Below, in pieces: positions 14,233 to 64,000 of a stretch of 64,000 nt of DNA. The translations under genes were made by a program, and so were the position numbers. This stretch comes from Brevundimonas sp. UBA6550 (GTDB lineage: Bacteria > Pseudomonadota > Alphaproteobacteria > Caulobacterales > Caulobacteraceae): assembly GCF_002434505.1 (NCBI RefSeq), contig NZ_DJKE01000008.1, positions 609,300 through 673,299 on the forward strand. The letters run 5' to 3'. The notes below the pieces were generated by a model. That model had not been told where the DNA came from, searched no databases, and saw only the letters and a program-made list of their open reading frames with translations. Numbering within the stretch: position 1 is the first letter of the stretch; every line of letters begins with the position of its first letter.

Positions 14233-14274
14233 CAAAAAGGCCGTGGGGTTGAAAGCTACGCACCCCACGGCCTC
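14233..14274 (-). terminator. intrinsic terminator or attenuator between ahpC and ahpF
   Basis: Read on the minus strand, arms GGCCGTGGGGT and ACCCCACGGCC (14262-14272 and 14239-14249) form an 11-bp stem with a 12-base loop, directly followed by TTTTTGCG. It lies after ahpC and about 65 bases before the ahpF start, so it would reduce read-through and keep ahpF below ahpC. A second GC-rich hairpin without a T-run lies at 14309-14331. Confidence 0.8.
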
Positions 14275-14347
14275 TGCAGGCGCCGGATCGGGTCCGGCTC
14301 CGATGACCGGCGGCGCTTGAACCGCGCCGCCGATCGAACCTGGGGTC

Positions 14348-14911: not shown

Positions 14912-15033
14912 GCGGAAAATCCAATGCAGGTGGTTGGGAGGCCCCTTCCCTACCGCACCGCAACACATAAGCCCAATCACTTATTTGCAGATGCGTGATA
15001 GATTTTGATTATAGAAACAGAGACGCCCTTGGA

Positions 15034-15139
15034 CGTCATCCTCGGGCTTGCCCGAGGATCGGACTATCGGCCGCTTTGCGTCGAATAAAGCGCACCATCG
15101 CTGTCGCAATCGATCCTCGGGTCAAGCCCGAGGATGACG
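15034..15139. repeat. paired-palindrome (REPIN-like) repeat, CGTCATCCTCGGG type
   Basis: A 106-bp element between ahpC and the NamZ-like gene. Each end is itself a palindrome (CCTCGGGCTTGCCCGAGG on the left, its partner on the right), and the whole reads inward from CGTCATCC to GGATGACG. Same length and outer sequence as the element at 16428-16533. Confidence 0.85.
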
Positions 15140-15149
15140 AAAACCAGCG

Positions 15150-17329: not shown

Positions 17330-17459
17330 CCCCGCCTGATTTCAGACGATTGAGACTCTTCAGACGGTGTTTTCATGAGGACCGTCTGCCCCCCTCCGCC
17401 TCTCATTGCGCCACCAAAGGGAAGACGCCCGACGGCATCTTTGCTAACGGAGCTTCGCC

Positions 17460-47902: not shown

Positions 47903-47907
47903 ACGCC

Positions 47908-50900: not shown

Positions 50901-51333
50901 CCTTGGTCAGGATGTCGCCGCCGTCGTCGCGCAGCTCGATCCAGGTCGGATAGACATGGGTCAGATCACCCGCGTGGCGCGTGAAGGAATCCAGCGCCCC
51001 GTCCTCCCACGGTGCGAACCAGGCGCCGGCGATGGGTGCGCCATTAGTCGATGCAACCTGGCTCGCCGGACGCTTTCTATGGGCGATGTAGTTCAGCAGA
51101 GCCCGCTCGGCCCCATGGGTGCGCCGCGCGACCACCGATGCGGCGGGCGACACCACCGACAGCCCCGTCAGGCTGGGCAGAATCATCAGACTGGCCACGA
51201 ATCCCGCCAGCACGATCCCCGCGACGATCGCCGCCGCCATCGCGGCCATCCGCATCCGCCGCGCCCGACGCCCCGTCGCGTCCAGAAACACCGCCGGCCC
51301 GTCGCCATGCGGTTTAGAAGCGTCCGACGTCAT
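47908..51333 (-). CDS. GH18-like / polysaccharide deacetylase / GT2 glycosyltransferase fusion
   Basis: A 1141-aa three-domain membrane protein. After an N-terminal helix (about 24-46) comes a glycoside hydrolase 18-like domain with GLQIDFEQV at its catalytic strand. Next is a NodB deacetylase from about 490 (TFDDGPDPEW, GNHSFTHPN for the metal). A helix near 730 precedes a family 2 glycosyltransferase from about 765 (VAAYNEA, VVDDGSSDGT, DADTQL, EDMDLTW, QRFRW), then C-terminal helices. The set suggests synthesis, deacetylation and trimming of a beta-linked amino-sugar polymer at the cell surface. The start is set at 51333; a GTG at 51369 is possible. Confidence 0.88.
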   Translation of the reverse strand: MTSDASKPHGDGPAVFLDATGRRARRMRMAAMAAAIVAGIVLAGFVASLMILPSLTGLSVVSPAASVVARRTHGAERALLNYIAHRKRPASQVASTNGAPIAGAWFAPWEDGALDSFTRHAGDLTHVYPTWIELRDDGGDILTKDWDPTRNPTTKPLIAAARAHGVKIVPVVGNATEGHFDAGRIDRMLSPGNAQHVMDRLVGFVQANGFSGLQIDFEQVTPQQIERLTPWLEQLHQRLHAQGGELSIALEVGLSDHDIRALSSVVDYAAIMAYDEHGEDSLPGPISSALFVDKALTRFTQLAPADKLILGIGAYSYDWRDGDRSAESLTTTAALATARGYRPEDNPANVVDFDPQALQPTFRYTDDQGRAHEVWMQDAASVANAMTMGRGRRLRGAALWALGEEDPASWKVFGRQAAPAITVIPALEHVALTQQIAFTGQGELLNVIDTPHAGDRRIEVDPVSGLISDEVWTRWPSAWTVRRTGAPDRTLALTFDDGPDPEWTPEILDVLKAKGVKATFFMIGGSAAANPDLVRRVRDEGHEIGNHSFTHPNMAHVDEERVRLELTATDRALESILGRQVTLFRPPYNADSEPESYGEILPIAVASKLGYTTAGESIDPNDWNLSRPNPDGGTHRLRPDEIVADVLAQADAGHAILLHDAGGDRSATVKALPVLIDALRARGYRLTTIGGLVGRTPDQTMPALPKGERSLIAADSAAFGFSHAVGVVLFVGFNLAIGLGLARIVLMLALASRRRRRAEPLDPAAPKPRVDVLVAAYNEATVIHRTLDSLLASRDVDVSVIVVDDGSSDGTYDVVKAAFGNDPRVRLRRKANGGKASALNLALTEATAPVVVGVDADTQLSGDALARLAAWFADPKVGAVAGNVKVGNRSNLVTRWQSIEYITSQNIDRRALALLNAVTVVPGAIGAWRTEALRSLGGYRSDTLAEDMDLTWRVREAGWVIANEPTALAFTEAPSSLGGLLKQRFRWSFGTLQCLWKHRRSTFRHGWFGGLALPSLWLFQIVGQVLAPLIDLQLAAAILMQGLAWLAAAQHADVDAAPNPTLWFTLGVYVAFTLLELAAGWVAFGFDRERRGDLWLLPTQRFVYRQIMYVVVWRALERALSGLGQTWGKLKRTGDVQAPAG

Positions 51334-51533
51334 CTCAGCCCAACCCCGTCGCGGCCAATCCCGCGTCACTTCGCCGCATATCCATCAAGAACGGCGGGAT
51401 ATGGGCGAAGCTGCGCCGAGGACGGGCCCTGCGGATCCCACGTCGCAGCGCCCAGCCGCGTCGGGGATGCCGCGATTACGCACGCTCCTTGCGCGGTGAC
51501 GCGATCTGTCGATCTTTTGAAAAGAGAGAAAAG
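51334..51533. other. host-side gap ending at the first tRNA-Ser-like core
   Basis: No gene found. The first part holds the promoter region of the minus-strand fusion gene. From about 51490 the sequence becomes less GC-rich (TTTTGAAAAGAGAGAAAAG) and runs into the 12-base core at 51534, which I take as the border between chromosome and mobile DNA. Confidence 0.5.
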
Positions 51534-51545
51534 TGGCGGAGACGG
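51534..51545 (-). other. candidate outer attachment core (tRNA-Ser 3' end fragment)
   Basis: TGGCGGAGACGG, the reverse complement of CCGTCTCCGCCA: CCA, discriminator G and the 3' acceptor strand of a tRNA-Ser. The same 12 bases recur in direct orientation at 52750. With no tRNA body attached, this looks like the footprint left by an element integrated at a tRNA-Ser gene. Confidence 0.45.
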
Positions 51546-51588
51546 TGCCACACAATCCAGCAAATCCGGACTTTTGATCCACGGGACT

Positions 51589-51603
51589 GTGCCAAGGTGG
51601 CAC
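51589..51603. repeat. GTGCCA palindrome near the left island border
   Basis: GTGCCA-AGG-TGGCAC, a perfect inverted repeat. The same half-site recurs as direct GTGCCAA repeats at 52513-52672, on the other side of the 51735-52490 gene. A protein-binding site is likely; the protein is unknown. Confidence 0.5.
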
Positions 51604-51640
51604 GATTACCCGTTACTTTATCGGACGTTGCGTTGACGCA

Positions 51641-51760
51641 CTATGCGGCATCGCGTTCTTGCTCGCCCTTCACCAGTCCCTTGAGGTCGTCGGCGATGAT
51701 GTGGCCGTAGCGATCAGCGGTGATTTTCAAGCTGCTATCTTTCGATACCTCTAGCTGCAT
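51641..51760 (-). CDS. 39-aa small gene or integrase C-terminal remnant
   Basis: An ATG at 51760, with a weak TAGG upstream, opens 39 codons ending at 51641 and overlapping the end of the next gene. The stretch SLKITADRYGHIIADDL resembles the C-terminus of tyrosine recombinases, where the catalytic tyrosine is followed by GH. The frame stays open a few codons before the ATG. It may be the tail of a lost integrase from an earlier element, or a real small protein. I cannot decide between them. Confidence 0.35.
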   Translation of the reverse strand: MQLEVSKDSSLKITADRYGHIIADDLKGLVKGEQERDAA

Positions 51761-52490
51761 CGCGCCTATCAGCGGCTTCTATGACCCGCATGATTTTTCG
51801 ATGATCGACCGTGTTTTCCAAGTCGAACATCGCTCCGAATAAACTTGTCTGCCCGACAACCTCAAGCGGACCGAGTGACGCTGTAAGCCTGCCAAACTTC
51901 ATCGACATCCTGAAGCCGCCCACAGTCATCATCCATAGCCGGGTGGACCCTATGACCTTCGTCCACGGCATCGCGACAAGCTTGTCGGCCTCGAAGGGCT
52001 GACCGTTAAACGACTGTCGGTATCGGCCGACCTCGATTGAAAGTCCTGGAAGCGTATCAAGCGGCGCACCGAACGCGATCTCTCCGGCTTTCCACTCGAA
52101 CTCTCCTAAATCGATGTGGTGCCAATCCCTTTGGCTGGTGACGGAGGATCGCCAGATCACAGACACGATCCATCGAGCGATCACGACAGGATCAATGTCG
52201 TCGATGCGATAATAGAAACGGCCAAAACCTCTATTCCGCGCTGCAAAGCTCGTTGCGAGGTCGAAGAATGGCTCGTCCAATTCTCGTCCTAACTGTGCGT
52301 CGTGTTTGGCGCACAGGATGTCAGTCACGAACATCCCGTTGGGGTATTTCGCAGAAATCCGCTCGGGAGTGACGAGCAGATTCCCACCTTCGGACTGATC
52401 GGCTCGTATCCAACGAGCGAAACCCTGCGGAATAATGTGGGATTTGATTGTCTGAGTTTCGGGACAGTTTGGTGCGCGACACCGGCTCAT
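51735..52490 (-). CDS. hypothetical protein with HNH-like zinc residues
   Basis: A 251-aa protein I do not recognise. The N-terminus CRAPNC with SHIIPQGFARW, and the later LCAKHDAQLGRELDEPF, resemble a family of HNH-like, probably zinc-binding proteins of unknown function found on mobile DNA. The remainder is a mixed alpha/beta domain without known motifs. Codon use is clearly unlike the chromosomal genes to the left. It lies alone between the two tRNA-Ser-like cores, transcribed towards the left border. Confidence 0.72.
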   Translation of the reverse strand: MSRCRAPNCPETQTIKSHIIPQGFARWIRADQSEGGNLLVTPERISAKYPNGMFVTDILCAKHDAQLGRELDEPFFDLATSFAARNRGFGRFYYRIDDIDPVVIARWIVSVIWRSSVTSQRDWHHIDLGEFEWKAGEIAFGAPLDTLPGLSIEVGRYRQSFNGQPFEADKLVAMPWTKVIGSTRLWMMTVGGFRMSMKFGRLTASLGPLEVVGQTSLFGAMFDLENTVDHRKIMRVIEAADRRDAARGIER

Positions 52491-52512
52491 TTTCGAATCC
52501 TAACGTCGTAGC

Positions 52513-52672
52513 ACCGTGCCAGACCGTGCCAAGCTAAGTTGATAGAGGCAGCAGATCGTGCCAATCGTGCCAAGTCACGGGGCACAAGACTGATTTCATT
52601 TCCGAGAATAGAAAGCAGGGAAACCGTGCCAAGGGCCAGATTTCCCCGCTGAAACCGTGCCAACCGTGCCAA
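52513..52672. repeat. cluster of seven GTGCCA(A) direct repeats
   Basis: The core CGTGCCA, six times followed by a second A, occurs with its G at 52516, 52526, 52558, 52567, 52626, 52657 and 52666, all on the plus strand. The spacing falls into pairs 9-10 bases apart (about one helical turn) separated by about 31 or 59 bases. No gene covers the stretch. Integrase arm-type sites, an excisionase or repressor array, or replication iterons would all look like this. Confidence 0.6.
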
Positions 52673-52749
52673 GAACGGACCATTTGGCTCGCATGGCACG
52701 GCACGATACGGCCAGATGGCCGTAAGTTATTGTTTTTACAGGGAATGAA

Positions 52750-52767
52750 TGGCGGAGACGGAGGGAT
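52750..52767 (-). other. candidate attL core (tRNA-Ser 3' end with T-stem)
   Basis: TGGCGGAGACGGAGGGAT is the reverse complement of ATCCCTCCGTCTCCGCCA: CCA, discriminator G, the acceptor 3' strand, the T-stem 3' strand and two T-loop bases of a tRNA-Ser. The match stops there and no tRNA body follows. It lies about 105-120 bases before the integrase start, the usual place for attL. The intact tRNA is expected beyond the right edge of the window. Confidence 0.55.
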
Positions 52768-52871
52768 ACTCTGCTGTGTGACATTTCGCGGGTTGAATCG
52801 TAAAGATTATTGGTTTTGCGCGCCTTTTTGGCTTGCGCGGTCACACATTTTGTCACACATCGCGTCTCGAA

Positions 52872-54626
52872 ATGGCCCGCGTTCCCGCTCACCTCATCAT
52901 TCGAAACGGCGTCTATAACTATCGTCGGCGCGTCCCCGCCGACCTACGCAGCAATCCTGTATTCAAGGGCCGGGATGTTTTTCAGGCGTCCTTGGGCGTG
53001 CGGACGCTGAAGGAGGCGCGCAGGGTCGTCCAAGAACTGAGGCTGGATGAGCTATTTGAGAGGCGATTCGCCCCTGTGGCCGACGTCGAAGGCGGCACGG
53101 TCCTCACCCCCTCCCTCCTAACTCACCTCGCCCGAGAACAGTACGAGCGCGGCTTGGAGTCGCTTCACCGCGAGCGGATGGAGGAAACCAACGAACACCG
53201 CGAGTGGCTGGACGAGCTGGCAGCTCAGGAACTTGGTGCGCTCAACGACCCCGTCTGGTCGAGCGACGCTCGCGCTCGGTTGCGTCGCGACGCTGATCCC
53301 TACCTTCAATCTCGCGCCGAGATCGCCGCCAAAAAGCTAGGCATCGACCACGACGCCGTCGCGGTACGAAAGATTGCCGATGCGCTTTTCGAGGCTGAAG
53401 TCAGCCTGACCGGAGCGCGGGTGGAGTTGGCATCGGGGCGCACCCTTACGACGACACCAGCCTATGCCTCATCGCCATCCGGAACCTCGAACGCCCCGAC
53501 GCAACGCGAGGCGCATTGGACCTTCAAGCGACTTGCTGAAGCGACAATGCGCCAACACCCGAAAGGGGAAAGCTGGGAGCATAAGGTCAAGGTCGTCGCG
53601 GCACTGTTCGACGAGTACGTTGGCTCGGCACCGATCTACAAAATCGACCGACGCATGGTCAGAAACTTCGTGAACGATCTTCACCACATGCCCGACCGTA
53701 TGACGATGCGGTTCCCGAAGATGACCCTGAAAGAAGCAATCGCGGCGAACGAAACGCGCGAGAAGCCGTACGGCACGATCTCTCCCAACACCGTGCGCGA
53801 TGGCTACTTCTCAATCCTGCGCTGGGCGTTCGGCCATGCCGTCGAACTTGAGGCAATCCCCCTGAACCCCTGCACAGCGACCAAAATCCGAGGGGCGACG
53901 AAGGGCGATGGCCGACGAACCCGAAACCCCTTCAAGGTGAACGAACTGAACGCCTTCTTCCGCCTCCCGATGTTCACGGGCTGCTTGTCGGAAGATCGCC
54001 CGAACACGCCCGGCGACTACACTTTCGACAATCACCGTCGATGGGCTCCGCTTGTCATGCTTTTCACTGGCGCGCGGCCTAGCGAGATCGCTCAGCTCGC
54101 CGTCAGCGACATCAAGGGTGACGCCAAGCACCCGTACATATCGATCCTGACCGAATACGACCCCAATGATCCGGACGACGAACGCGACTTCGTCGTCTCC
54201 CACAAAACGGAAAATGCCCGACGCGACATTCCTCTACACCCGGAGCTGATCAGCCTAGGCTTCCTTCGGTACGTCGCTGATCGTCAGCGCTCCGGCGATG
54301 TGCGGCTATTCCCGGAGTGGAAGCTCCCTGCCGCCGGTCGCAAGCTCTATTCGTCCGCTTCGTGGATCAGGAACACGAATGAACGTCTGATCCCCAAGAT
54401 TACTAACCGTCACCCAAGGCCGACCCTCTACAGCTTCCGCCACACGTGGAAGACGCAGATGGCGCTCCATCAGGTTCCGACCCAATATCAGAACCAGATT
54501 CTTGGACACGCTCAACAAGGCATGGACGATCACTATCTTGGCCGCATGGATATCGAACACACCTACGCTGCTATCAAGAACATTTCTTTCACTGGACTCG
54601 ATCTAGACCATCTGAAATCTTACTGA
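52872..54626 (+). CDS. tyrosine-type site-specific integrase
   Basis: A 584-aa phage-type integrase with a DUF6538-like N-terminus (MARVPAHLIIRNGVYNYRRR), an alpha-helical arm/SAM-like region, and the catalytic domain. Catalytic residues are seen in order: Arg in TGARPSEIA (near 399), Arg-His in YSFRHTW (near 522), His in LGHAQQG, and Tyr in DDHYLGR (near 554). The start at 52872 is taken from the family N-terminus; an in-frame ATG at 52833 gives 13 more residues. It should integrate the island at the adjacent tRNA-Ser-like core. Confidence 0.9.
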   Translation: MARVPAHLIIRNGVYNYRRRVPADLRSNPVFKGRDVFQASLGVRTLKEARRVVQELRLDELFERRFAPVADVEGGTVLTPSLLTHLAREQYERGLESLHRERMEETNEHREWLDELAAQELGALNDPVWSSDARARLRRDADPYLQSRAEIAAKKLGIDHDAVAVRKIADALFEAEVSLTGARVELASGRTLTTTPAYASSPSGTSNAPTQREAHWTFKRLAEATMRQHPKGESWEHKVKVVAALFDEYVGSAPIYKIDRRMVRNFVNDLHHMPDRMTMRFPKMTLKEAIAANETREKPYGTISPNTVRDGYFSILRWAFGHAVELEAIPLNPCTATKIRGATKGDGRRTRNPFKVNELNAFFRLPMFTGCLSEDRPNTPGDYTFDNHRRWAPLVMLFTGARPSEIAQLAVSDIKGDAKHPYISILTEYDPNDPDDERDFVVSHKTENARRDIPLHPELISLGFLRYVADRQRSGDVRLFPEWKLPAAGRKLYSSASWIRNTNERLIPKITNRHPRPTLYSFRHTWKTQMALHQVPTQYQNQILGHAQQGMDDHYLGRMDIEHTYAAIKNISFTGLDLDHLKSY

Positions 54627-54636
54627 CGACAGTCAT

Positions 54637-54662
54637 GACATGTGGTACTATTACCACATGTC
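54637..54662. promoter_or_regulatory. perfect 11-bp inverted repeat between int and terL
   Basis: GACATGTGGTA-CTAT-TACCACATGTC, perfect in both arms, starts 10 bases after the integrase stop and spans both candidate terL starts (54640 and 54658). There is no T-run, so it is not a standard terminator. An operator for a phage-type repressor, or an RNA hairpin that hides the terL start, fits better. Confidence 0.55.
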
Positions 54663-55734
54663 TTATTCTGCGATGGTGTCTAGATGGCAAAACGGTTCTA
54701 GCGGCTTCTTCAACTTTCTTGACGATGTAAAGCCGGTCGTCCGGTCTTCAAAGGGCGGGTTCATCCCCTTCATCCCCGGCCCGCGCGAACGGGCCGAAAT
54801 CGTCAAAGCTCTCGACGGTGATCATTCGACGGTCGTGTTCTCGTGGCCCCGGAGGCACGGCAAGACGGCCACCAGCGTCATGATCATCCTGTGGCGCTTC
54901 CTGACGCGGCGCACCGAAAATATCGCCATCGTCGCCAACTCGGAAAAGCAGGTCGTGGACACGGCGTTCCGGGCGTTGCGCGAGGCGTTCGACAACACGC
55001 CCATGCTGAAGGCCCTTGCGAGCGCCGGAACGGTCGTGGTCGGCGTGGACTCGATCCACTTCCCCGCAACGTCGTCCGTCATCCAAGCCTACAGTTCGAA
55101 CCCGTCCGCATTGTGGGGAAAAAAATTATCTGCAGCCCAACTCAGCGAGCTTCACGCCTCGAAGGGTTCCGCCGTCCTAGAGGTGCTGACCGGCTCCCTG
55201 TTGGACAGCGAAGGGTCGATGATGTTGATCGACTCGACAGTCGGCCCCATGTCCTCGCCGCTGTATGACCTCTATCAGGCGCACATCGCTGGCGACGATC
55301 CAAGCCTGTTCTTTAGCCATATCAGCTATACAGACCTCGATGACGCTTGCGCGAATGGGCCGTCGTGGATCGACCCTGTGAAGCTGCGCGCGGCGTCCAG
55401 ACGGATGCTCCCTTCGACCTTCAACTTGATGCACCTTAACCGCTGGGGCGATGCTTCCGGGCTGCTGATAGACGCCGACACCCTCTCGAAATGCACAGAG
55501 GTCAGCTACCTCCCTGATCCAAAAGCTATCGCCGCAGGAGCCAGCTACGTCGTCAGTGGCGGGCTAGACCGCGCATTCGGCGGGTCGAAGCACGGCGACA
55601 GCACTATCACGACAGCCATCGTCATGACCGTGCAAGACGATGAAGAGCATTACTACGTCCTAGATAGCGAAGCGGTGCTATTCTCGCGTCTCGCGGGGAT
55701 CAAGGCAAACCTCAAACGCTACCATCGCGATTGA
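54640..55734 (+). CDS. terL: terminase large subunit, ATPase part, cut by in-frame TGA
   Basis: N-terminal part (364 aa) of a phage DNA-packaging motor. The Walker A-like SWPRRHGKT lies near 68-76, followed by the adenine-binding helices. The Walker B region reads SMMLIDSTVG, without the usual Asp-Glu pair. The start of the RNase H-like nuclease is also here (GGLDRAFGGSKHGDST). Translation stops at TGA 55732-55734, and the same frame continues two codons later with the rest of the nuclease. The start may be 54640 or 54658 (MSYSAMVSRW); both lie in an inverted repeat. Confidence 0.82.
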   Translation: MWYYYHMSYSAMVSRWQNGSSGFFNFLDDVKPVVRSSKGGFIPFIPGPRERAEIVKALDGDHSTVVFSWPRRHGKTATSVMIILWRFLTRRTENIAIVANSEKQVVDTAFRALREAFDNTPMLKALASAGTVVVGVDSIHFPATSSVIQAYSSNPSALWGKKLSAAQLSELHASKGSAVLEVLTGSLLDSEGSMMLIDSTVGPMSSPLYDLYQAHIAGDDPSLFFSHISYTDLDDACANGPSWIDPVKLRAASRRMLPSTFNLMHLNRWGDASGLLIDADTLSKCTEVSYLPDPKAIAAGASYVVSGGLDRAFGGSKHGDSTITTAIVMTVQDDEEHYYVLDSEAVLFSRLAGIKANLKRYHRD

Positions 55735-55737
55735 AGA

Positions 55738-56310
55738 ATGAGCCGGTGCGGCCTCGAAACTTATGGCGCGCAGGACGTTTACGATTGGGCGCAAGCGGAG
55801 CCTTTTGCTGACGGGACCGAACTTTTCACTCCGTCTCGAAAGGCTCAGTTTCAAGCCTTCACGTTGATGGCGACCGCCGCCGCAGAGGGTCGCCTTCACA
55901 TTGACCCGCGCTTCACCCGCCTGATCGACGAACTTCGCACGTTCGAGATCGTGGACGACGGCAAGGAGACGGTCGGCAACGAAGCCCTTCCCAAGTTCGG
56001 CCACCCACGCGGTCGGCATGACGACGCGGTGTATAGTTTGGCCTGGGCGATGTTCGCCACGCGCGAGGTTACGCTCAACCCTTACGAACTTCAGGGCGTG
56101 AGGTGCACCGACACCGGCCCCGCTCGTCATATGTGCGCCCTGAACGGCGGCGCGGTCATTCCTATGTGCGCGCGATCCTGTCGATCTATGCGGCGGGCCT
56201 TTGATCTCTTCGACCAGTATGCAGCCCGCAGCCCTCGCAATAACCTTCCCATCGAAAGTTTCATCATCGACAAGTTAAAAAACGTCGGAAGCCATACGAT
56301 TCCTCGCTGA
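55738..56310 (+). CDS. terminase large subunit, nuclease part after in-frame TGA
   Basis: A 190-aa continuation, in the same frame, of the terminase large subunit. LETYGAQDVYDWA supplies the second acidic nuclease residue and RHDDAVYSLAWAMF the third, so the active site is completed only with the part before the stop. The ATG lies one codon after the TGA, so reinitiation could make a separate nuclease polypeptide. A nonsense mutation is the simpler explanation. The last 70 residues are a cysteine- and arginine-rich tail unlike usual terminases. Confidence 0.7.
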   Translation: MSRCGLETYGAQDVYDWAQAEPFADGTELFTPSRKAQFQAFTLMATAAAEGRLHIDPRFTRLIDELRTFEIVDDGKETVGNEALPKFGHPRGRHDDAVYSLAWAMFATREVTLNPYELQGVRCTDTGPARHMCALNGGAVIPMCARSCRSMRRAFDLFDQYAARSPRNNLPIESFIIDKLKNVGSHTIPR

Positions 56311-56353
56311 TTGCCTGTTGCTTGAAAGCAACAATGCGTGATATACTTATGTC

Positions 56354-57652
56354 ATGTTGGGATTTAGCGATGAAAGGAAATCGTTCCTAGATTTGGTTCG
56401 GAAATCGGAGACGCGAAAACTACGCGCCGCCGAAGCCCTAGCCTTCTTCGACGACAAACAAGATGAAACGACAGCCACGCTGATCAAGCGTCGCTTCGCT
56501 AACCCGGAGTCCTTCCGGGTGTTTCAGGTCAATATTGTCAAGAAAATCGTGTCCCGTCGCGCCACGGCATATCAGACGCCCCCGGTTCGCACATTCGAGG
56601 GATGGGATCAGGCCGCCGCCACCGAGCTTTATCAAAACGCCAACATCGACGCCGTTCTGAAGCGCGCCAGCAAACTCACCAAGCTACTCAAGACGACCAC
56701 CCTGCAAGTCGTGTGGACCGAGCCGCACGGCCTTCAAGTGCGCGTCCTCACGCCCAATATTCTCGATGCGGAATGGACCGACCCGGAGCATCCCGAGCGG
56801 ATGGTGGTCACTCATGCCGCCATCGACCCGGCCAAGACCACCTATGCCGATTGGACGGCGACGACCTACCAGCGTCGCAACGCCAACGGCCATCCTATCC
56901 TGACGCCCGGCAACGCCAATGGCGTGAACCCCTATGGCATCCTCCCCTTCGTCCCGCTTTTTGACCGCTTACCAGATGCCGACTTCTTCCTTCCGGGCGG
57001 CGACGACCTCATGGGCGCTCAAAAGGCGCTGAACGTCGGCCTGACAAACCTGTGGCGGGCGGTTGAACTGCAAAGTCATGGTCAGGCCGTCGCCAAGGGC
57101 CTTCCGATTGGCGACCCGATCCAGACCGGCCCGGACAAGGTGATCTTGCTCCCGAAGGATGGCGAGTTCGCCTACGCAGCGCCGAACACACCCATCCCCG
57201 ACATTCTCGAGGCGCTCGAGTTCTTGATGCGCTCAACGGCATCGACGAACGACTGCACCGCTGACGTTCTCGACCTGTCGAAAACAGCTGAGTCGGGTTC
57301 GGCCCGTGAAGCTCAACGGATCGACCTGAAAGAGGCTCGCCTGGACGATATTGCCCTATGGCGCGGCTATGAGCGTCGCCTGTTCGAGGTGATCAAGCGC
57401 GTGGTCAACACACACCGCCCCGGCACGATCCCGGAGGCTGCTACCGTCCGGGCCGACTTCACCGAGCTTCAGGATAACCTCACGGAGTCCGAAGTCCTCG
57501 CCAATCTGAAGGAGCGGGCCGAACTCGGCATTTCGTCCCCGGTGGACGCGCTGATGACGCTCAACCCGGATGGTTACGCTACTCGCGAAGACGCCTACCG
57601 CGCGCTGCTTTCTCGTAAACAAGAGACGGAAGAACTGACGCTAGGGCTTTGA
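56354..57652 (+). CDS. phage portal protein (SPP1 gp6-like)
   Basis: A 432-aa portal protein that forms the dodecameric ring for DNA entry and joins to the terminase. The family look comes from VFQVNIVKKIVSRRATAYQ at the start, the wing with NPYGILPFVPLFDRLPD, the stem helix around GAQKALNVGLTNLWRAVELQ, and the late SGSAREAQRIDLKEARLDDI helix. Length is normal for small portals. It starts 43 bases after terL and precedes the scaffold-like gene by 11 bases. Confidence 0.85.
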   Translation: MLGFSDERKSFLDLVRKSETRKLRAAEALAFFDDKQDETTATLIKRRFANPESFRVFQVNIVKKIVSRRATAYQTPPVRTFEGWDQAAATELYQNANIDAVLKRASKLTKLLKTTTLQVVWTEPHGLQVRVLTPNILDAEWTDPEHPERMVVTHAAIDPAKTTYADWTATTYQRRNANGHPILTPGNANGVNPYGILPFVPLFDRLPDADFFLPGGDDLMGAQKALNVGLTNLWRAVELQSHGQAVAKGLPIGDPIQTGPDKVILLPKDGEFAYAAPNTPIPDILEALEFLMRSTASTNDCTADVLDLSKTAESGSAREAQRIDLKEARLDDIALWRGYERRLFEVIKRVVNTHRPGTIPEAATVRADFTELQDNLTESEVLANLKERAELGISSPVDALMTLNPDGYATREDAYRALLSRKQETEELTLGL

Positions 57653-57663
57653 AAGGAAAACAC

Positions 57664-58017
57664 ATGACTGAAACGACTGAAACCCCGCCTATCGACCTCA
57701 CGGAGGACCTGGCCCAACTGAAAGCCGAACTGCAAACGCTCCGCGACCAGACCGACGCCATGCGCGCCGACAACGACGTGGACGGGCTGATCGGCAATCT
57801 GACAACCCTGATCCCCGAGGCAGACCGCGCCGCCCTCCCGACCGAGGGGACCGCCTTCAATCGCCTGTTCGCTCACGTCACCGCCGCGCTGAAGGCGGCC
57901 AAGACGCCAGCCGTCCCCACTACGGACACAACCCGTCCTCCGACCACTCCCGGCCCGGACGACTTCACCAAACTGCCCGCTCACGCCCGGATGGCTCTTG
58001 GCTACGCCCAAGCCTAA
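57664..58017 (+). CDS. small acidic scaffold-like head protein
   Basis: A 117-aa acidic protein. An N-terminal coiled coil (LAQLKAELQTLRDQTDAM) leads to a Pro/Thr-rich linker and a short C-terminal helix (AHARMALGYAQA). Position between portal and capsid genes, acidity and coiled coil are those of scaffolding proteins, but there is no sequence motif to prove it. The ATG at 57664 is chosen because AAAGGA precedes it; a TTG at 57649 is less likely. No protease domain is visible. Confidence 0.7.
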   Translation: MTETTETPPIDLTEDLAQLKAELQTLRDQTDAMRADNDVDGLIGNLTTLIPEADRAALPTEGTAFNRLFAHVTAALKAAKTPAVPTTDTTRPPTTPGPDDFTKLPAHARMALGYAQA

Positions 58018-58083
58018 CCGCGCCTTCTCCACCAATACCCACCGCTGGCCGCGCCAGCAGAAAGGATTTTCAAGTCTATACAC

Positions 58084-58992
58084 ATGCTGACTCAAGTCGA
58101 ATGGAGTAAACTCAACCCGAACCCCTTGCAATCCGGCGTTGTCGAAGTTTTCGCCCGCGAGAACCCCGTTATTGCCCTGATGCCGTTCGCCAACGTGGCG
58201 GGCAACGCATACACCTACAACGTCGAGGACACTTTGCCCGGCGTGGAGTTTCGTGGATACAACGAAGGTTATTCGGAAAGCACGGGCGTCATTAACCCGC
58301 AGACCGAACGCCTGACGATCATCGGCGGCGATAGCGACTTTGACGTTGCTCAAATCGCTCAACAGACCGGCGACAACGACACCCGCGCCATCCATGACGC
58401 CATGAAGGCAAAGGCCATGTCGCTGAAGTGGCTGCAAACCTTCTTCGACGGCGACACCGCCACCAATCCCAAGGCGTTCGACGGCATTAAGAAGCGTCTG
58501 ACCGGCAACCAGATTATCAGCGCCGGCACGAACGGCGGGGCATTGACCCTCGCCATGCTCGATGAACTGGTGGACGCCGTTCAAGGCCAGCCTTCCGCCA
58601 TCTTCGCCCGGAAATCCGTGATCCGCGCCTATCGAAACGCCCTGCGCGCGTCCGGAGGCACGACTCCCGAATCCATCATGATCCCGAACTTTGGCCGTCC
58701 GGTGATCGCTCACAATGGCGTTCCGATCCTGCCTATCGAACTGGACACGCAGGGGAATGAAATCCTGACCGGCGACGAGAGCCACGGGACGAACAACAAG
58801 ACGACATCGGCCTACGCCGTCCGCTTCGATCTGGACGCGCTGCACGGCATCCAGACGGCTCCGATCAGCGTCCGAGACCTTGGCGAGGTGGACGACAAGC
58901 CCGCCTATCGGACCCGCACCGAATGGTATTCCGGCATCGTTCTGAAATCCGGTCGATGCGCCGCCCGCCTCAAGGGTCTGACGAACGTCTGA
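58084..58992 (+). CDS. phage major capsid protein (HK97-fold family)
   Basis: A 302-aa protein in the place of the major capsid protein. Sequence features fit the HK97 fold: an N-terminal arm, FANVAGNAYTYNVEDTLPG, a long spine helix (AIHDAMKAKAMSLKWLQTFF), and a C-terminal stretch of beta strands (RTEWYSGIVLKSGRCAARLKG) seen in capsid proteins of small prophages. Short length suggests no N-terminal delta domain, in line with a separate scaffold. An AAAGGA lies about 18 bases upstream, further than usual. Confidence 0.8.
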   Translation: MLTQVEWSKLNPNPLQSGVVEVFARENPVIALMPFANVAGNAYTYNVEDTLPGVEFRGYNEGYSESTGVINPQTERLTIIGGDSDFDVAQIAQQTGDNDTRAIHDAMKAKAMSLKWLQTFFDGDTATNPKAFDGIKKRLTGNQIISAGTNGGALTLAMLDELVDAVQGQPSAIFARKSVIRAYRNALRASGGTTPESIMIPNFGRPVIAHNGVPILPIELDTQGNEILTGDESHGTNNKTTSAYAVRFDLDALHGIQTAPISVRDLGEVDDKPAYRTRTEWYSGIVLKSGRCAARLKGLTNV

Positions 58993-59006
58993 CCCGCACC
59001 CCAAAC

Positions 59007-59082
59007 GTCACCGGGTCTCCTTTCTCTCCCCGGTGACGACGGACGCCCCCTCGTAACTCAGCAAAGGCACGAGAGGGCGTCC
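59007..59082. terminator. two tandem hairpins after the capsid gene
   Basis: The first hairpin pairs GTCACCGGG with CCCGGTGAC (59007-59015, 59029-59037). The second pairs 59041-59054 with 59069-59082 (GGACGCCC.CTCGT / ACGAG.GGGCGTCC, one mismatch). Neither has a T-run, so they may be partial terminators or mRNA stabilisers that separate high capsid expression from the genes downstream. Confidence 0.5.
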
Positions 59083-59180
59083 CCACACGGCGACCGCGCC
59101 CAACACGCGAGACGCCGACAAAGCAGGCGGGCCGGGATTCGCAGCCCCGGTCCGCCTTCGCTGACTCTGGAACCCGCAGC

Positions 59181-59702
59181 ATGGAATATTACACCGACGA
59201 TCTATCCCCTGAAGACAGCCTGATCACGCTAGAGGCCGCAGACACCATTCTCGCGACAAGCCTTCATGGCCGCGAATGGACAGCCCGCGCCCAAGCCGAC
59301 AAACAAGCCGCTTTCGACGACCCCGAACTTTCCCCGCAACGCGACGACGATAAGGCCGCCCTGATCGACGCCAGCGCCGTCATGGCCGCGCAACCGTGGA
59401 AGGGTCGCAAAGCGTCTTCGGATCAAACCCAGGCATTCCCTCGCATCGCTGTCTATCTCGACACCGGAGAAGCGGTAATCGGCGTTCCCGCCCCCATCCA
59501 GCGCGCCACGGCATTGCTGGCCGCCCATCTGTCCCGGCGCGCGGATATGCCGATCACCGCCGAAACGATGGTCAGCTACGCCATCGGAGAGACAAGCGGC
59601 ATCTTCCGTGCGCCGTCCCTCGACGAACTGCCCCGCCACGTCCGCCAACTGATCACACCATACCTGAACGCCGGATCGGGCTGGACGGCGGTGCGCGCAT
59701 GA
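59181..59702 (+). CDS. head-tail connector-like protein (DnaT-like phage family)
   Basis: A 173-aa protein resembling a phage family labelled DnaT-like, which lies in the head-completion position in prophages. LITLEAADTILATSLHGREW at the start, KAALIDASAVMAAQPWKGRK in the middle and IGVPAPIQRATALLAAHL near the end are family features. By position it should join the portal to a tail or close the capsid. Despite the family label, a DNA replication role is not implied. It overlaps the next gene by 4 bases (ATGA). Confidence 0.72.
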   Translation: MEYYTDDLSPEDSLITLEAADTILATSLHGREWTARAQADKQAAFDDPELSPQRDDDKAALIDASAVMAAQPWKGRKASSDQTQAFPRIAVYLDTGEAVIGVPAPIQRATALLAAHLSRRADMPITAETMVSYAIGETSGIFRAPSLDELPRHVRQLITPYLNAGSGWTAVRA

Positions 59703-60703
59703 TCGTCCCCGACCACTTCGACCAGCAACACGCCACCTTCACCGGAGAGTTCCTAGACGCGCTCAAGAAGGCTTACGGCGACGCAATGGATGCCGTCGAT
59801 ATCAACGCCTTGATTGCGGCTCTTGAAGCTGGTGATGAAGCCGCTCTAGCCAAGGTGCTGAACCTCGACGAGGGCCTACACTCTGGCCTCGCTGTGGCGT
59901 TCAGCAACGGGCTTTTCTATGCGCTGCTCGGCAACATCGTCATCGCCATGAAGGCGTTCGCGACCCGTCATCGGTCACAGACGAATCCACAAGCAGAGGT
60001 GGACCGGCTTCGCGCCGACATAGAACGGAACATCCTTCAACCTCTTGCCCGCCGTTCCTACGAAGCGGTCACGACGGCACACCGCGAACTTCTCAAAGGC
60101 GACATGACAGCCCGCGCAAAGGCGGAACTGATCATCCGGTCAATCGCAATGGCTCCGGATCAGGCCCGATCAGCAGCCCATTTCGCCCGCGCCCTCCACG
60201 AAGCCATGACATCCAAGGACAAGACCGTTCAGGACGGCAAAACCTATGTCACACAGCCCACGGCCAAGCTGATCATCCAAAGGCACATGAAGCACCTGAA
60301 CGCCGCCCAGCGATCAGCCCTCCGCACGGCCTTCGGCAACGGTATGACCCTTGAGGCGAACACTGGCCTGATCCAGCGCCATGACAACGCCCTGATCAAC
60401 TACCGGCAATCGGTGATCGCCCGACAAGAGGCGACACGATCCATACACGTTGGAGAATACCTGGCCTTCAAACAGGGCAAGGCGAACCGATCCATCCCAC
60501 GGGACGCCCGCCGATACTGGAAGACCAGAGGCGACGAGCGGGTTCGCCATGATCACCGGATGGTCACGGCGATGAACCCGAACGGCGTTGACGTAGGTCA
60601 GGCTTTCCAAACGCCTCTAGGCCCGGTCATGCACCCGCCGCTTGAGGTGAACTGTAGGTGCAGGATCGTGGTCAGAAGGCCATCCGATCCCGACGACGAA
60701 TAG
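59699..60703 (+). CDS. minor head protein, Mu F-like head morphogenesis
   Basis: A 334-aa phage head morphogenesis protein. The helical N-terminal two-thirds leads to the C-terminal Mu F-like domain, recognised by RVRHDHRMVTAMNPNGV and HPPLEVNCRCRIVV, whose Cys-x-Cys is conserved. Such proteins are present in few copies and help make the head or are ejected with DNA. The ATG at 59699 overlaps the preceding stop (ATGA). In many phages this gene lies beside the portal, so its place after the connector is a little unusual. Confidence 0.85.
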   Translation: MIVPDHFDQQHATFTGEFLDALKKAYGDAMDAVDINALIAALEAGDEAALAKVLNLDEGLHSGLAVAFSNGLFYALLGNIVIAMKAFATRHRSQTNPQAEVDRLRADIERNILQPLARRSYEAVTTAHRELLKGDMTARAKAELIIRSIAMAPDQARSAAHFARALHEAMTSKDKTVQDGKTYVTQPTAKLIIQRHMKHLNAAQRSALRTAFGNGMTLEANTGLIQRHDNALINYRQSVIARQEATRSIHVGEYLAFKQGKANRSIPRDARRYWKTRGDERVRHDHRMVTAMNPNGVDVGQAFQTPLGPVMHPPLEVNCRCRIVVRRPSDPDDE

Positions 60704-60855
60704 CCCTTCAACCCCGGATGGTGGGCCTGCGGATTTGAGTGGTGATGGTGCGGTTTCAAAGTTTTTGGGACCAGCCCCCTATCTATCCGCCGCTCTTACC
60801 CAGCCACTCCCTGCCGCGACCCACGAAACACCCGCCCGGAAAGGAGGGCGATACG

Positions 60856-61251
60856 ATGAACCAAACAAATAGACACATCGAAACGGCGGACCTATCCGCC
60901 GTCTTCAACCTCGAAATCGCAGGACAGAAGGTGGATGGCCGCACCGTCGCAGCCCGATCCTTCCGGATGATCGCAGGCGACTTGATGGATCAGCTCGCCC
61001 GCCAGCCAAAACCTTCGGAAGCGGTTATGATCCGACAGGCCGCGACCTTGGCCTTCTTATGCGACCGCGACACCGCGTGCCTGATCGCCGGGGAGAAGTT
61101 CGACGAAGAGAACTACCGGCGCAACACACAGGCGCTCGGCGCGGTGCTGATCAAGCTCGGCATGGCCGCGAAGAGCCGGGATGTGACGAAGGGTGGATCA
61201 AAGGGCGGAGACCCGTTTGCCGACGCGATCAATAATGTTTGGAAGGCGTGA
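60856..61251 (+). CDS. small helical phage protein of unknown role
   Basis: A 131-aa mostly helical protein with no firm match. IRQAATLAFLCDRDTACLIA and RNTQALGAVLIKLGM resemble small unnamed proteins that often lie near terminase genes, so a small-terminase-like or head-accessory role is possible but unproven. The ATG at 60856 has AAAGGAGGGCG before it, the strongest ribosome site in the island. A longer in-frame form from 60739 is proline-rich and not protein-like. Confidence 0.6.
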   Translation: MNQTNRHIETADLSAVFNLEIAGQKVDGRTVAARSFRMIAGDLMDQLARQPKPSEAVMIRQAATLAFLCDRDTACLIAGEKFDEENYRRNTQALGAVLIKLGMAAKSRDVTKGGSKGGDPFADAINNVWKA

Positions 61252-61282
61252 AATGGACGGTAGCAAATCGATCCGAGCGTTA

Positions 61283-61612
61283 TCAGCTAATCTTTTCGAG
61301 GATTAGATGCTGTCGTGCAGCACGAGCCGCACTGTCACGAGCGGCGTCGCGCATTTGTCGAGCCATCGATTCTGCGCTTCGTTGCGCCATGCTCTGCCGT
61401 AGAGTTTTAGAGGCAACGTCTTCAAATGCCGCGAGTTGGGTCACGCATCGGTCAGCGGCCCTACTCACAGTAACCTCGATGACTTCGGGTCCTTCGGCAT
61501 CCAGTGTTATCGATTCACTCAACACGCACTCACGATAAGCCTGCACGTAATCGTCCGTTGGCGTGAGGTCCAAGGGGGATTGGGCGAGGACGAAGGCGAG
61601 AGCGAGCAACAT
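61283..61612 (-). CDS. exported helical protein of unknown function
   Basis: A 109-aa protein with a short signal peptide (MLLALAFVLAQS) and a mature helical part rich in Ala, Arg and Ser (ARQMRDAARDSAARAARQ). Two cysteines (YREC and ADRC) could form a disulfide. It is transcribed towards the phage genes and away from the resolvase. Nothing ties it to packaging; it may be a cargo gene. Confidence 0.55.
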   Translation of the reverse strand: MLLALAFVLAQSPLDLTPTDDYVQAYRECVLSESITLDAEGPEVIEVTVSRAADRCVTQLAAFEDVASKTLRQSMAQRSAESMARQMRDAARDSAARAARQHLILEKIS

Positions 61613-61659
61613 TCAGGCATTAGGTGCGGAGAAATGTCAAAAGACAAGTCTTCATCATC

Positions 61660-61762
61660 GGCTCAAAAGTTGTAAGTTCTGCGCCATAGCCCAAAAGATA
61701 GCTGTACTCGGATTTTGAGCTAATATATGAGCTAGGGATATCGACGCCCTATCTTTTGAGCC
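61660..61762. promoter_or_regulatory. candidate res site of the serine resolvase
   Basis: Four copies of a half-site like GGCTCAAAAG lie just upstream of the recombinase gene: two forward (61660-61669, 61688-61697) and two inverted (61711-61720, 61752-61762). The inner pair spans 33 bases with a short central spacer, close to the 28-base crossover site of Tn3-type resolvases. The outer pair would be accessory sites. The gene's promoter must overlap, giving self-regulation. Confidence 0.55.
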
Positions 61763-61766
61763 ATCC

Positions 61767-62384
61767 ATGCACCGCATCGCCTACTTCCGGGTCAGCACCG
61801 GCGACCAAAGCATTGAAGCGCAGCGGGCCGCGATGCCCGGTCCATTCGATAGGGAGTTCGAGGACGTGGGTGTTAGTGGTGCAATGCTCGCCGCATCCCG
61901 GCCCGGATTTGCAGACTTACTCACCCACGTCAGGGCCGGTGACACCGTGTATGTCTATGCCGTTGACCGTCTAGGCCGCGATGCGCTGGACGTTCAAGCC
62001 ACGGTGCGCCGCTTAATCCAAGCTGGCGTGACGGTGGACGTGCGAGGTCTAGGGCCTATCGGGAAGGGAGTAGGAGAACTGATCCTAGCCGTCCTAGCCC
62101 AGGTCGCGGACATGGAGCGCCATCGCATTGCAGAGAGAACAGAGGCGGGCCGCAAGGCCGCGCGCGCATCCCTAGCGGTTACAGGCAGGACGCACCGTGG
62201 GAAGACAAGTCTAGGGCGACCAAAAGCCCAGGAAAGCGACGACGTGGTGACGTGGAGAAAGAGAAACAACGCCAGTATAAAAGACACGGCAACGCATTTC
62301 AGGCTTTCCACGGCTACAGTGAAGCGGTATTGTGCGATGACTAATACTGGCGATATCGAAGAACTGTCATTGATCAGTAGTTGA
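61767..62384 (+). CDS. serine recombinase (resolvase/invertase family)
   Basis: A 205-aa small serine recombinase. The nucleophile is the Ser in YFRVSTGDQS (Ser10), with VDRLGRDALD supplying active-site arginines and the long E helix (LAQVADMERHRIAERTEAGR) typical of resolvases. A C-terminal helix-turn-helix (SIKDTATHFRLSTATVKRY) binds DNA. It could resolve dimers of the island or invert a segment. No inverted gene segment is visible, so resolution at the adjacent repeats is favoured. Confidence 0.9.
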   Translation: MHRIAYFRVSTGDQSIEAQRAAMPGPFDREFEDVGVSGAMLAASRPGFADLLTHVRAGDTVYVYAVDRLGRDALDVQATVRRLIQAGVTVDVRGLGPIGKGVGELILAVLAQVADMERHRIAERTEAGRKAARASLAVTGRTHRGKTSLGRPKAQESDDVVTWRKRNNASIKDTATHFRLSTATVKRYCAMTNTGDIEELSLISS

Positions 62385-62451
62385 TAGCTTTCTAGCTTCT
62401 TAGCTGCCTCCTTTTTCTAGTGTGATAGCAGGGCGACCACCCCACTCCGGA

Positions 62452-63297
62452 TCAGGATGACGCTCTCTCTCGGCGCGTCTCTGGCAGGATTTCCTCCCCG
62501 GCGCTGGTGATGCGGAGTGTGCCGCCGTCGGGCATGGTTATCCGAATATCCGCCTTCGCGCCTTGCTCTTTGGCATTCGCTCTTGCGACAGCGACGATCA
62601 CGTCGTAGGCGGCGCTCTCATCCAGTGACGAATGCAGGCGAAGTGCGGTTGCCGATGCATCCATTGTAAATAGATGAGGCTGATACTTCGCGTAATCCTC
62701 TCCAGACCAACGAAACTGCATATAGCCGCGCTGGGGATCGAAAGCGGTTCCGGCCTGAACTATTCCCTGGAACGCTGCCTTTTGATCTCGATAGGTGTCC
62801 AGCAGCTCGGCGGTTGTGTTGTGTCGGTCATCAATCACCATCATGGTTTTCATGATCTCTTGCCCACCTAGCTGACCGGCCCGCGCCACTTCCTCCGGGG
62901 TAAAAATATAGCGGGTTAAGCTGGTGGCGAACGGACGCATCTCCAATGAGAGATGATCTAGAAACGGGCGTCCCTCGCGCGCAGCAGCCTCCCGCGCCAA
63001 AGCAAGGCGCGCTGCTCCCTCGTCAGCAGCCTTTCGAATGTTCTGCTGTGCAGCGTAAATCTTATTGAGCTTGTGGATCAGCGAGAAGTCGATCTGCTGG
63101 TTACGCTCTTTCTTTTCGCTGGCCTTCGCTTCACGGGCCGCCTTCAAGCCCCATCGATATGCAGCATAAGCGCCTGCCAAAGCGCCGAAGATGCCGATGC
63201 CGCCGCCTATGATGTCACCAACATATTCGGGCCGTTCAGGCGGCAACTGCACAGCCGTAGCCGTCATCCCAGATTGGCCGGTAGAAGGAGTCGCCAT
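62452..63297 (-). CDS. membrane-anchored protein of unknown function
   Basis: A 281-aa protein. A short N-terminus is followed by one helix (about 30-48, GDIIGGGIGIFGALAGAYAAY), a charged coiled coil (REAKASEKKERNQQ) and a soluble alpha/beta domain ending in ETRRERASS. No catalytic motif was recognised. Translation from 63297 is preferred, 8 bases after the stop of the zinc-ribbon gene, so the two are one transcript. A longer form from 63372 would overlap that gene. Confidence 0.65.
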   Translation of the reverse strand: MATPSTGQSGMTATAVQLPPERPEYVGDIIGGGIGIFGALAGAYAAYRWGLKAAREAKASEKKERNQQIDFSLIHKLNKIYAAQQNIRKAADEGAARLALAREAAAREGRPFLDHLSLEMRPFATSLTRYIFTPEEVARAGQLGGQEIMKTMMVIDDRHNTTAELLDTYRDQKAAFQGIVQAGTAFDPQRGYMQFRWSGEDYAKYQPHLFTMDASATALRLHSSLDESAAYDVIVAVARANAKEQGAKADIRITMPDGGTLRITSAGEEILPETRRERASS

Positions 63298-63305
63298 ACC
63301 TGCGC

Positions 63306-63878
63306 TCACATTCCGGACGTGAATGCGATAAAAACGCCAACCGCCATGATAGCGAGCAGCACATAGACCCACGCAGGCATCGCGTCCGAGTCCCTCAACG
63401 GCGCATTCGCTAGAAGGCCGTTCATGTTGGGATTCACCCGCTCGGCATAGGACGGGCGGCCAATAGTGGGAGGCTGACTGGGCTCGAACGTCGATTGAAC
63501 AGCAGGGGGGCTGATGGCTTCCGAAGTGGAAAGAACCTCACCACAGAAGCGGCACTTAGTAGCGGCCTTCTTGATGATTTCCGCACACACTGGACAAAGG
63601 CGTTCGTCCGACACCTTCCGGACCGCGACGCCGGTCGCCTTGAGCGCCCGCCACGACGTGAGGCTGATGCCGCTATCGTAGTTGACCTTGATTACAGCAT
63701 TCCCGCCGACCTTCGCAGCCAGCGCCTTCAACCGGGTATTCACCTCATCCATGCTTGGCGCACTGGAAAAGGCATGAGACGCCTCGCATTTCGCCTCTAC
63801 CTGGCGGATGACTTCGAACTCGAAGTCCGGCGTCCCCGTGAAGATCTCGACTTCTTCTACCTTAGTTGCCATGCCCAC
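63306..63878 (-). CDS. YbjQ-like domain / zinc ribbon / C-terminal anchor protein
   Basis: A 190-aa protein in three parts. An N-terminal region of about 95 residues resembles YbjQ-like domains (LKALAAKVGGNAVIKVNYDS). A four-cysteine zinc ribbon follows (CPVCAEIIKKAATKCRFCG, about 97-115). A Pro/Ser linker leads to a single C-terminal helix (AWVYVLLAIMAVGVFIAF), so the protein is tail-anchored with its domains in the cytosol. Function unknown. It leads the two-gene transcript with the 62452-63297 gene. Confidence 0.7.
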   Translation of the reverse strand: MGMATKVEEVEIFTGTPDFEFEVIRQVEAKCEASHAFSSAPSMDEVNTRLKALAAKVGGNAVIKVNYDSGISLTSWRALKATGVAVRKVSDERLCPVCAEIIKKAATKCRFCGEVLSTSEAISPPAVQSTFEPSQPPTIGRPSYAERVNPNMNGLLANAPLRDSDAMPAWVYVLLAIMAVGVFIAFTSGM

Positions 63879-64000
63879 CCCGGCTCTTCATCACAAACGT
63901 GAGCATGAGCTAACCGCAAAATCGCGTCAGGTGAAGGCGCAACTATCAAGAGTTGCCTTGAAATAGGGCTTGCGACCCATTCAGCTCGCAAGCCGGCACC

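Follow-up and report, generated by a model that had tools for sequence, protein, structure and literature searches.

Head-building satellites have been described in several forms. In the published accounts we draw on, capsid-forming phage-inducible chromosomal islands (cf-PICIs) encode a capsid protein, a protease, a portal, connectors, both terminase subunits (TerS and TerL) and an HNH protein (PMC10690885); AlpA, Pri-Rep and a prohead protease are named among their signature genes (PMC10448857), and the published cf-PICI capsid tree uses PF05065 (PMC13230959). MulchRoom, a Streptomyces satellite, is described as having an integrase, and its tail as matching that of the helper in length (PMC10690885). 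The 64,000-nucleotide stretch of Brevundimonas sp. UBA6550 analyzed here (G000:C6:609300-673299, hereafter the window) carries an integrated element with head genes of its own. We read this element, with a probability of roughly 80%, as a chromosomal capsid-encoding phage satellite of a distinct family, one that would need a helper for its tails and for lysis.

Boundaries and gene content of the Brevundimonas element

When the sequence is followed past the right edge of the window (positions beyond 64000, called extended, continue the window's numbering and come from loci L002 and L003), the extent of the element can be read from its attachment (att) sites. The 20-bp core AATGGCGGAGACGGAGGGAT on the left recurs exactly at the 3' end of an intact tRNA-Ser(GCT) gene (Table 1), and this is the sole exact direct match of at least 13 bases between 51000-53200 and 60000-70500; ARAGORN finds zero tRNA genes inside the 64-kb window itself. 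The repeat and the position of the tRNA therefore give an element of about 15.3 kb. Between ~51.5 and 68.0 kb the GC content drops from ~0.68 to 0.52-0.65. The initial annotation had described an island at 52750..61251 and proposed to extend the sequence right to a second tRNA-Ser core. That core was found, so the island described is the left 8.5 kb of the element, and an end at 61251 is not borne out. The exported protein, resolvase and membrane proteins that had been taken for the outside neighborhood are present, and all of them lie within the att bounds.

The tRNA-Ser site is an insertion hotspot, and genus mates exist in which it is unoccupied. In three other loci (L116, L117 and L122) the homologue of window position 47889 lies only 30-45 bp from the tRNA match, and both the element and 47890-51533 are therefore absent there. 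A pattern that combines the right end with the att core, as expected of attR or attP, had 0 matches in viral contigs; since locus L012, which covers this spot, was also not returned, the search is silent on excision.

Open reading frames (ORFs) were scanned against Pfam and PHROG. The integrase, TerL, major capsid protein (MCP), connector-like protein (the head-tail adaptor) and Mu F-like protein of the initial annotation were all recovered as families by these scans. The MCP profile also matches the capsid chains 3j4u (E 8.6e-8) and 3j40 gp7 (E 0.0025). The portal has zero Pfam or PHROG matches, and its profile found nothing at E <= 1 among sequences of solved structures; its assignment comes from its homologues, of which there are 287; in the 120 listed, PF05133 (SPP1 portal) is present once and the name SPP1 Gp6-like portal once. 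The small protein encoded after it (core cluster c2) matches no Pfam or PHROG family, and is called scaffold-like by position alone.

As the initial annotation had stated, no family of tail or lysis proteins passed E 0.001 anywhere in the element. Three sub-threshold matches, to an Rz-like spanin (E 0.06) in the first membrane-protein gene, a minor tail protein (E 0.2) in the zinc-ribbon gene and a tail completion protein (E 0.13) in c12, are read as chance. The accompanying statement that replication genes are also missing was wrong, as a gene for an HUH Rep-like protein lies just right of the window and inside the att bounds. Between its att sites the element holds one replication-type gene and no recognized tail or lysis gene, and it has 14 further att-bounded relatives.

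Table 1. Features of the Brevundimonas element in window coordinates (above 64000, extended)
Feature	Position	Strand	Evidence or remark
Whole element	52748..68083, ~15.3 kb	.	att repeat and tRNA; window holds 52748..64000
attL core	52748..52767	.	20-bp exact copy of 68064-68083
Tyrosine integrase	52833..54626	+	PF00589 (E 4.8e-8), phrog_1 (E 1.1e-28)
TerL N-terminal piece	54640..55734	+	PF03354, phrog_9; ends at in-frame TGA
TerL C-terminal piece, same frame	55738..56310	+	identity to the corresponding part: 96% (L013), 95% (L022), 93% (L092)
Probable portal, SPP1 gp6-like	56354..57652	+	position; homologues' annotation
Small scaffold-like protein, c2	57649..58017	+	portal-capsid position kept in 27/27 clustered loci
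MCP, gp7 type	58084..58992	+	phrog_212 (E 1.7e-82), PF20911
Head-tail adaptor	59181..59702	+	phrog_477 Ad1 (E 1.5e-12), PF20557
Mu F-like head morphogenesis protein	59693..60703	+	phrog_3517 (E 1.8e-18); PF04233 just below its cut-off
Conserved late protein c5, candidate TerS	60739..61251 (likely start 60856)	+	27/27 clustered loci, truncated in L092
Small exported-looking protein	61283..61612	-	no family match
Serine recombinase (resolvase/invertase), core cluster c7	61767..62384	+	PF00239 (E 1.2e-26), phrog_125; 25/27 clustered loci
Membrane-protein cargo	62452..63372	-	no family under E 0.001
Zinc-ribbon membrane protein, cargo	63306..63878	-	PF10571 (E 6.2e-5, under its cut-off), phrog_8032 (E 9.8e-8)
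Small conserved gene c12	64438-65001 (extended)	+	8/27 clustered loci
HUH Rep-like gene	65001-65552 (extended; L002 19001-19552)	+	motifs; 9/27 clustered loci
Two cargo genes	66251-67860 (extended; L003 251-1860)	-	no family under E 0.001
attR core	68064-68083		inside tRNA-Ser(GCT); tRNA 3' end
Intact tRNA-Ser(GCT)	68066-68157	-	ARAGORN

A family of relatives without recognized tail genes

Searching viral contigs with a capsid profile confirmed 302 stretches, and the 80 best were kept as loci (L012-L091); genome contigs added 18 loci. By tblastn the window's portal matches every one of the 59 loci L012-L070 and all genome loci but L109 (17 of 18); the 21 loci L071-L091 give no match. Among the 59 portal-bearing viral loci only L012 lies on a contig longer than 20 kb; this metagenome contig is 99.97% identical to the window's element over 15.2 kb. 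Several viral and genome loci are second copies with identical capsids (L026/L096, L033/L098, L042/L101, L049/L103, L051/L104 and L031/L108). The hosts named by the genome loci are Brevundimonas, Sphingomonas, Sphingosinicella, Erythrobacter, Azospirillum, Magnetospirillum, Telmatospirillum, Dokdonella and Methylococcaceae, and Methylobacterium and Methylorubrum also occur among the portal homologues, so that the family spans Alphaproteobacteria and some Gammaproteobacteria and is widespread, though apparently undescribed. Three of the Methylobacterium/Methylorubrum portal homologues (P0205, P0213 and P0220) come with a longest contig of 16.1-16.5 kb and are possible episomal or excised forms.

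The relatives share the architecture of the element as well as its genes. A tRNA gene is present in 20 of the 44 loci scanned for one, and in 14 of these 20 a tRNA repeat of 18-88 bp recurs at a distance of 13,834-16,331 bp; it was not found in the other six (L021, L048, L054, L063, L094 and L102). The sites of the att-bounded relatives are Ser-GCT, Pro-TGG, Gln-CTG, Cys-GCA and Glu-TTC. With the window's own element, the 15 att-bounded elements measure 13.8-16.3 kb (mean 15,034 bp, standard deviation 570, coefficient of variation 3.8%), despite cargo that varies from element to element. A packaging limit would be the natural explanation for a near-constant size with differing cargo. No exact terminal repeat of at least 16 bases was detected in the 80 viral loci, many of which hold part of a contig.

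ORFs were clustered for the window's element and 26 of the 98 fetched loci, 14 of them att-bounded and 12 more with long stretches; as window/L012, L026/L096, L042/L101 and L049/L103 are copies, at most 23 of these 27 are distinct. The comparison of gene order that had been proposed gives a shared core, int-terL-portal-c2-MCP-adaptor-MuF-c5-recombinase, with each gene in 24-27 of the 27 clustered loci: TerL, portal, c2, capsid, adaptor and c5 in all 27, MuF and the recombinase in 25, and the integrase in 24. The core serine recombinase lies on the plus strand in the window and on the minus strand in L015, L016, L020 and L093; multimer resolution or a switch are possible roles for it. In L022 the TerL, portal, MCP, adaptor and MuF proteins are 95-98% identical to those of the window, while its integrase is 28% identical and its site is tRNA-Glu; the same module with another integrase and another site points to modular movement. 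The genes tested, namely the late module, the recombinase, and the HUH gene with its neighbor, evolve under purifying selection, with ratios of nonsynonymous to synonymous substitution (dN/dS) of 0.03-0.27.

Outside the core, the longest member of each cluster of at least 60 aa was taken from the 15 att-bounded elements, giving 80 representatives. Scanned against PHROG with one additional window ORF, these showed no tail or lysis family among the 14/14 and 25/34 families listed. A Pfam scan of the 80 together with seven ORFs of L092 and L030 returned a phage nozzle, which belongs to L092, and one YadA_stalk match whose member was not traced; L092 also has weak tail-fibre PHROG matches at 17401-17919. 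The cargo among these 87 ORFs includes methyltransferases, restriction enzymes, Shedu SduA and a reverse transcriptase.

The family also stands apart from described phages. Portal, adaptor and c5 gave 0 tblastn matches in 50,697 phage records, although the adaptor does match a PHROG profile, and TerL reached 23-26% identity in the 15 matches listed of 117. The capsid matches 283 phage records, at best with 47% identity. In 72,556 plasmid records the portal had 0 tblastn matches and the capsid matched only below 60% identity, the best listed being 44% in Acinetobacter records of 105-107 kb. We built a capsid tree from the portal-bearing capsids (the window's and those of 76 loci, 77 in all), 21 without a portal and 10 phage capsids hand-chosen from the 283 matching records. 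Identical sequences were dropped (15 portal-bearing rows, six without a portal and one phage row that equals L071), as were two partial portal-bearing rows and an interrupted one. In the resulting 83-row tree the 59 portal rows fall on one side of a branch (100/100), and the 9 phage rows and 15 rows without a portal fall outside this clade. The head-without-tail, satellite-like shape proposed at the outset is thus well supported by the att bounds, the near-constant size of 15 elements, relatives in several proteobacterial families in which no tail gene is recognized, purifying selection and a separate capsid clade.

Replication, packaging and alternative explanations

The HUH Rep-like protein was recognized by its motifs, H90-x-H92 and Y162-x-x-K165 (HxH and the catalytic YxxK), which are invariant in 8 aligned sequences. 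A structural model (mean predicted local distance difference test score, pLDDT, 70.8) shows a weak resemblance to Rep and NS1 nuclease domains, and the profile found no useful match among sequences of solved structures (best E 0.75). The HUH gene occurs in 9 of the 27 clustered loci and its neighbor c12 in 8, these being the window's closer relatives. In the sister clade (L050, L058, L063, L068, L069, L070 and L105), the viral contigs of which are 13.5-18.8 kb long, primase/helicase genes stand in place of HUH, with phrog_239 in 7 of the 49 ORFs scanned. Beyond the HUH gene lies a non-coding stretch at 65610-65870 (L002 19610-19870) that L022 and L015 share with the window in closely similar form. 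In the window, four copies of CAATCAGAAGA with at most 1 mismatch lie beyond this stretch, where 30 shuffles gave at most 3; in L015, L016, L020, L023 and L093 the copies are no more frequent than in shuffles. The stretch with these copies is a candidate Rep origin. Rfam found nothing in it, and a structured RNA is not claimed, as single-strand folding reached significance in L093 (z -3.1) and not in the window or L020 (z -1.1 in both).

A candidate small terminase is provided by c5. The usual position of a small terminase gene is just before terL, and homologues of c5 in the sister clade (22-34% identity) lie immediately before terL in L050, L068 and L105 and one to two genes before it in L058, L063, L069 and L070; none was recognized in sister-clade loci L055 or L067. 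The protein itself matches nothing in Pfam, PHROG or phage records, and Foldseek gave 0 matches with E <= 0.001, with helical rows tied.

The large terminase gene is split by an in-frame TGA at 55732-55734, after which the frame resumes at 55738. This lesion, noticed initially as support for decay, is real, and it is shared by only the window and the near-identical L012 among the 27 clustered loci; in the other 25 TerL is one ORF with a median of ~550 aa. Both pieces have dN/dS values of 0.05-0.13 against L022, L015 and L092 (0.05-0.06 for the C-terminal piece), so the lesion looks recent. A stop private to this copy suggests that the window's element is probably packaging-defective and that the family is not decayed; as a sign of decay, therefore, the split speaks for the window copy and not for its relatives.

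This bears on the first alternative, that the element is a plain decayed prophage, a tailed phage that has lost its tail, lysis and most other genes. Besides the terminase stop, the state of L092 fits such a history, since that locus is partly decayed, with c5 truncated and an adaptor match of just 36 residues. A common gene order and a range of 13.8-16.3 kb in 15 att-bounded elements do not, nor do strong purifying selection, the single-ORF TerL of nearly all relatives, the portal, adaptor and c5 without tblastn matches in phage records, or the distinct capsid clade. The tail and lysis genes of a complete tailed prophage were not found in the element. Prophage decay as the whole story is rejected for the family by dN/dS, size constancy and the relatives, and we consider it improbable for the element.

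A self-sufficient minimal virus, that is, a tail-less double-stranded DNA virus with a gp7 capsid, or one with an unrecognized tiny tail, would spread without a helper. The element does bring its own head, packaging, integration and replication-type genes, and for 22 of the 120 MCP homologues listed the longest contig measures 14-17 kb, as counted by hand. A head-tail adaptor kept in all 27 clustered loci (truncated in L092) and the lack of any lysis gene in the scans make such a virus very unlikely; moreover, we know of no tail-less HK97-fold virus of bacteria. There is an equally small chance that these are anti-phage islands whose heads serve chiefly to sequester helper tails, mobility being secondary. 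The defence-like cargo of several relatives would suit this, but the conserved integrase and terminase, the TerS candidate and the near-constant size point to self-packaging. Finally, a gene transfer agent (GTA) or other domesticated host capsid is the least credible explanation and is rejected by location: the host is alphaproteobacterial and its genome carries a GTA-like cluster, but that cluster lies elsewhere, on contig C5 (211138-223391, with GTA_TIM at C5:211138 and a portal at C5:222399, ~10 kb apart), and the element is att-bounded and patchy: with its own genome counted, portal homologues turn up in 3 of 131 genomes of the genus. The capsid, counted likewise, turns up in 2 of 398 genomes of the order.

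A satellite that probably spreads by means of tails borrowed from another virus thus remains our preferred reading, its helper dependence being inferred from the genes. Upon helper infection or induction, the integrase would excise a 15.3-kb circle, which the HUH protein would nick to start rolling-circle replication to concatemers, and the serine recombinase may resolve multimers. TerL and the TerS candidate (60856-61251) would then package this DNA, using a small head made by the satellite itself; the adaptor would dock a helper-made tail, and the helper would lyse the cell. In the window copy, the TerL stop would probably block self-packaging unless another terminase substitutes.

A lead to a helper comes from L092 (Brevundimonas sp. 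EYE_349), in which 12466-16090 is a chimera with a T7-like podovirus fragment. There c5 continues directly into a T7-type nozzle, of which the C-terminal half is present, and behind it come genes for an internal virion protein and part of a T7-type terminase. The piece of nozzle is nearest to Caulobacter phage S2B, at 55% identity, with Mycobacterium phage jiawei at 54%. The satellite has thus probably met a T7-like podovirus inside one cell on at least one occasion. The nozzle family (PF25675) was found in 0 of 10 genomes of other named relatives, a result that does not establish absence, as no control genome matched either. In the window's own genome, the phage families looked for gave only the portal beside the GTA-like gene.

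The flank to the left of the element records another insertion. A third copy of the att core, 12 bp long, at 51534 delimits a small remnant (51534-52747), the leftover of another insertion at the same tRNA, with one 251-aa gene on the minus strand (51735-52490) and four 23-nt repeats containing CGTGCCAAG at 52511-52673; in L119, an end homologous to this remnant (84%) lies directly at its tRNA. Further left, an ORF of 1153 aa at 47908-51369 combines parts that by eye are chitinase-like, polysaccharide deacetylase-like and glycosyltransferase-like, and genus mates L116, L117 and L122 lack this region between their left flank and the tRNA.

Comparison with known systems

The literature searched (titles and abstracts, with subscription papers lying outside) held no description of this family, no such satellite for Brevundimonas, Sphingomonas, Methylobacterium or Azospirillum hosts, and no paper on Sphingomonas or Brevundimonas satellites. 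Elements of the family sit in viral databases, where they would count as small phages. The phages nearest by capsid are those with a gp7 capsid (Paenibacillus phage C7Cdelta and others), whose capsid is homologous at up to the 47% identity noted above; their genomes, however, are at least 41 kb in the 40 rows listed, and they have no portal, adaptor or c5 homologue by tblastn.

Among described satellites, MulchRoom and MiniFlayer of Streptomyces resemble the element in carrying terminase, portal, capsid, scaffold and adaptor genes, but in the account at hand they are without obvious replicases and belong to Actinomycetota (PMC10690885), whereas here there is an HUH Rep-like gene, or primase/helicase genes in the sister clade. 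The satellite plasmid TG54 of Vibrio crassostreae (cf-PISP) is similar in size (15.8 kb), with its own head genes and no tail; as described, it differs in being episomal, with plasmid maintenance genes, no integrase and a PF05065 capsid (PMC13230959), where the Brevundimonas element is integrated.

The closest likeness is to cf-PICIs: an integrated, att-flanked island that brings an integrase along with a capsid, portal, adaptor and terminase of its own (TerL being split here), no recognized tail, and a dependence on helper tails that is here predicted from genes. The differences concern several traits in the published descriptions. The capsid belongs to PF20911 and phrog_212 and not to PF05065, a family that serves as a proxy, as other cf-PICI capsids may exist. 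The window's ORFs have no protease family (phrog_595 occurs in 3 of 49 sister-clade ORFs scanned), neither they nor the 87 ORFs described above have an HNH Pfam match, and the Pfam matches of ORFs of at least 60 aa include no AlpA or Pri-Rep, the HUH Rep-like gene being present instead. A conserved serine recombinase and named hosts that are mostly Alphaproteobacteria set the family further apart.

More tentatively, these elements could be capsid-forming satellites of an origin independent of cf-PICIs, with HUH rolling-circle replication, a small gp7-type head of their own of about T=4 (triangulation number, estimated by scaling genome size to head volume with the epsilon15 genome as reference) and the short tails of T7-like podoviruses, distributed across several alphaproteobacterial families and some Gammaproteobacteria. 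This would suggest that head-building and tail-stealing arose separately, with a different capsid lineage and replication strategy. The family provides candidate satellites for testing which tails foreign heads accept. The initial assignment to the cf-PICI type is thus apt for how the element probably works and not for where it belongs; our best reading, with cf-PICIs compared by their published description, is that the Brevundimonas element works in a cf-PICI-like manner and represents a separate family of capsid-encoding satellites.

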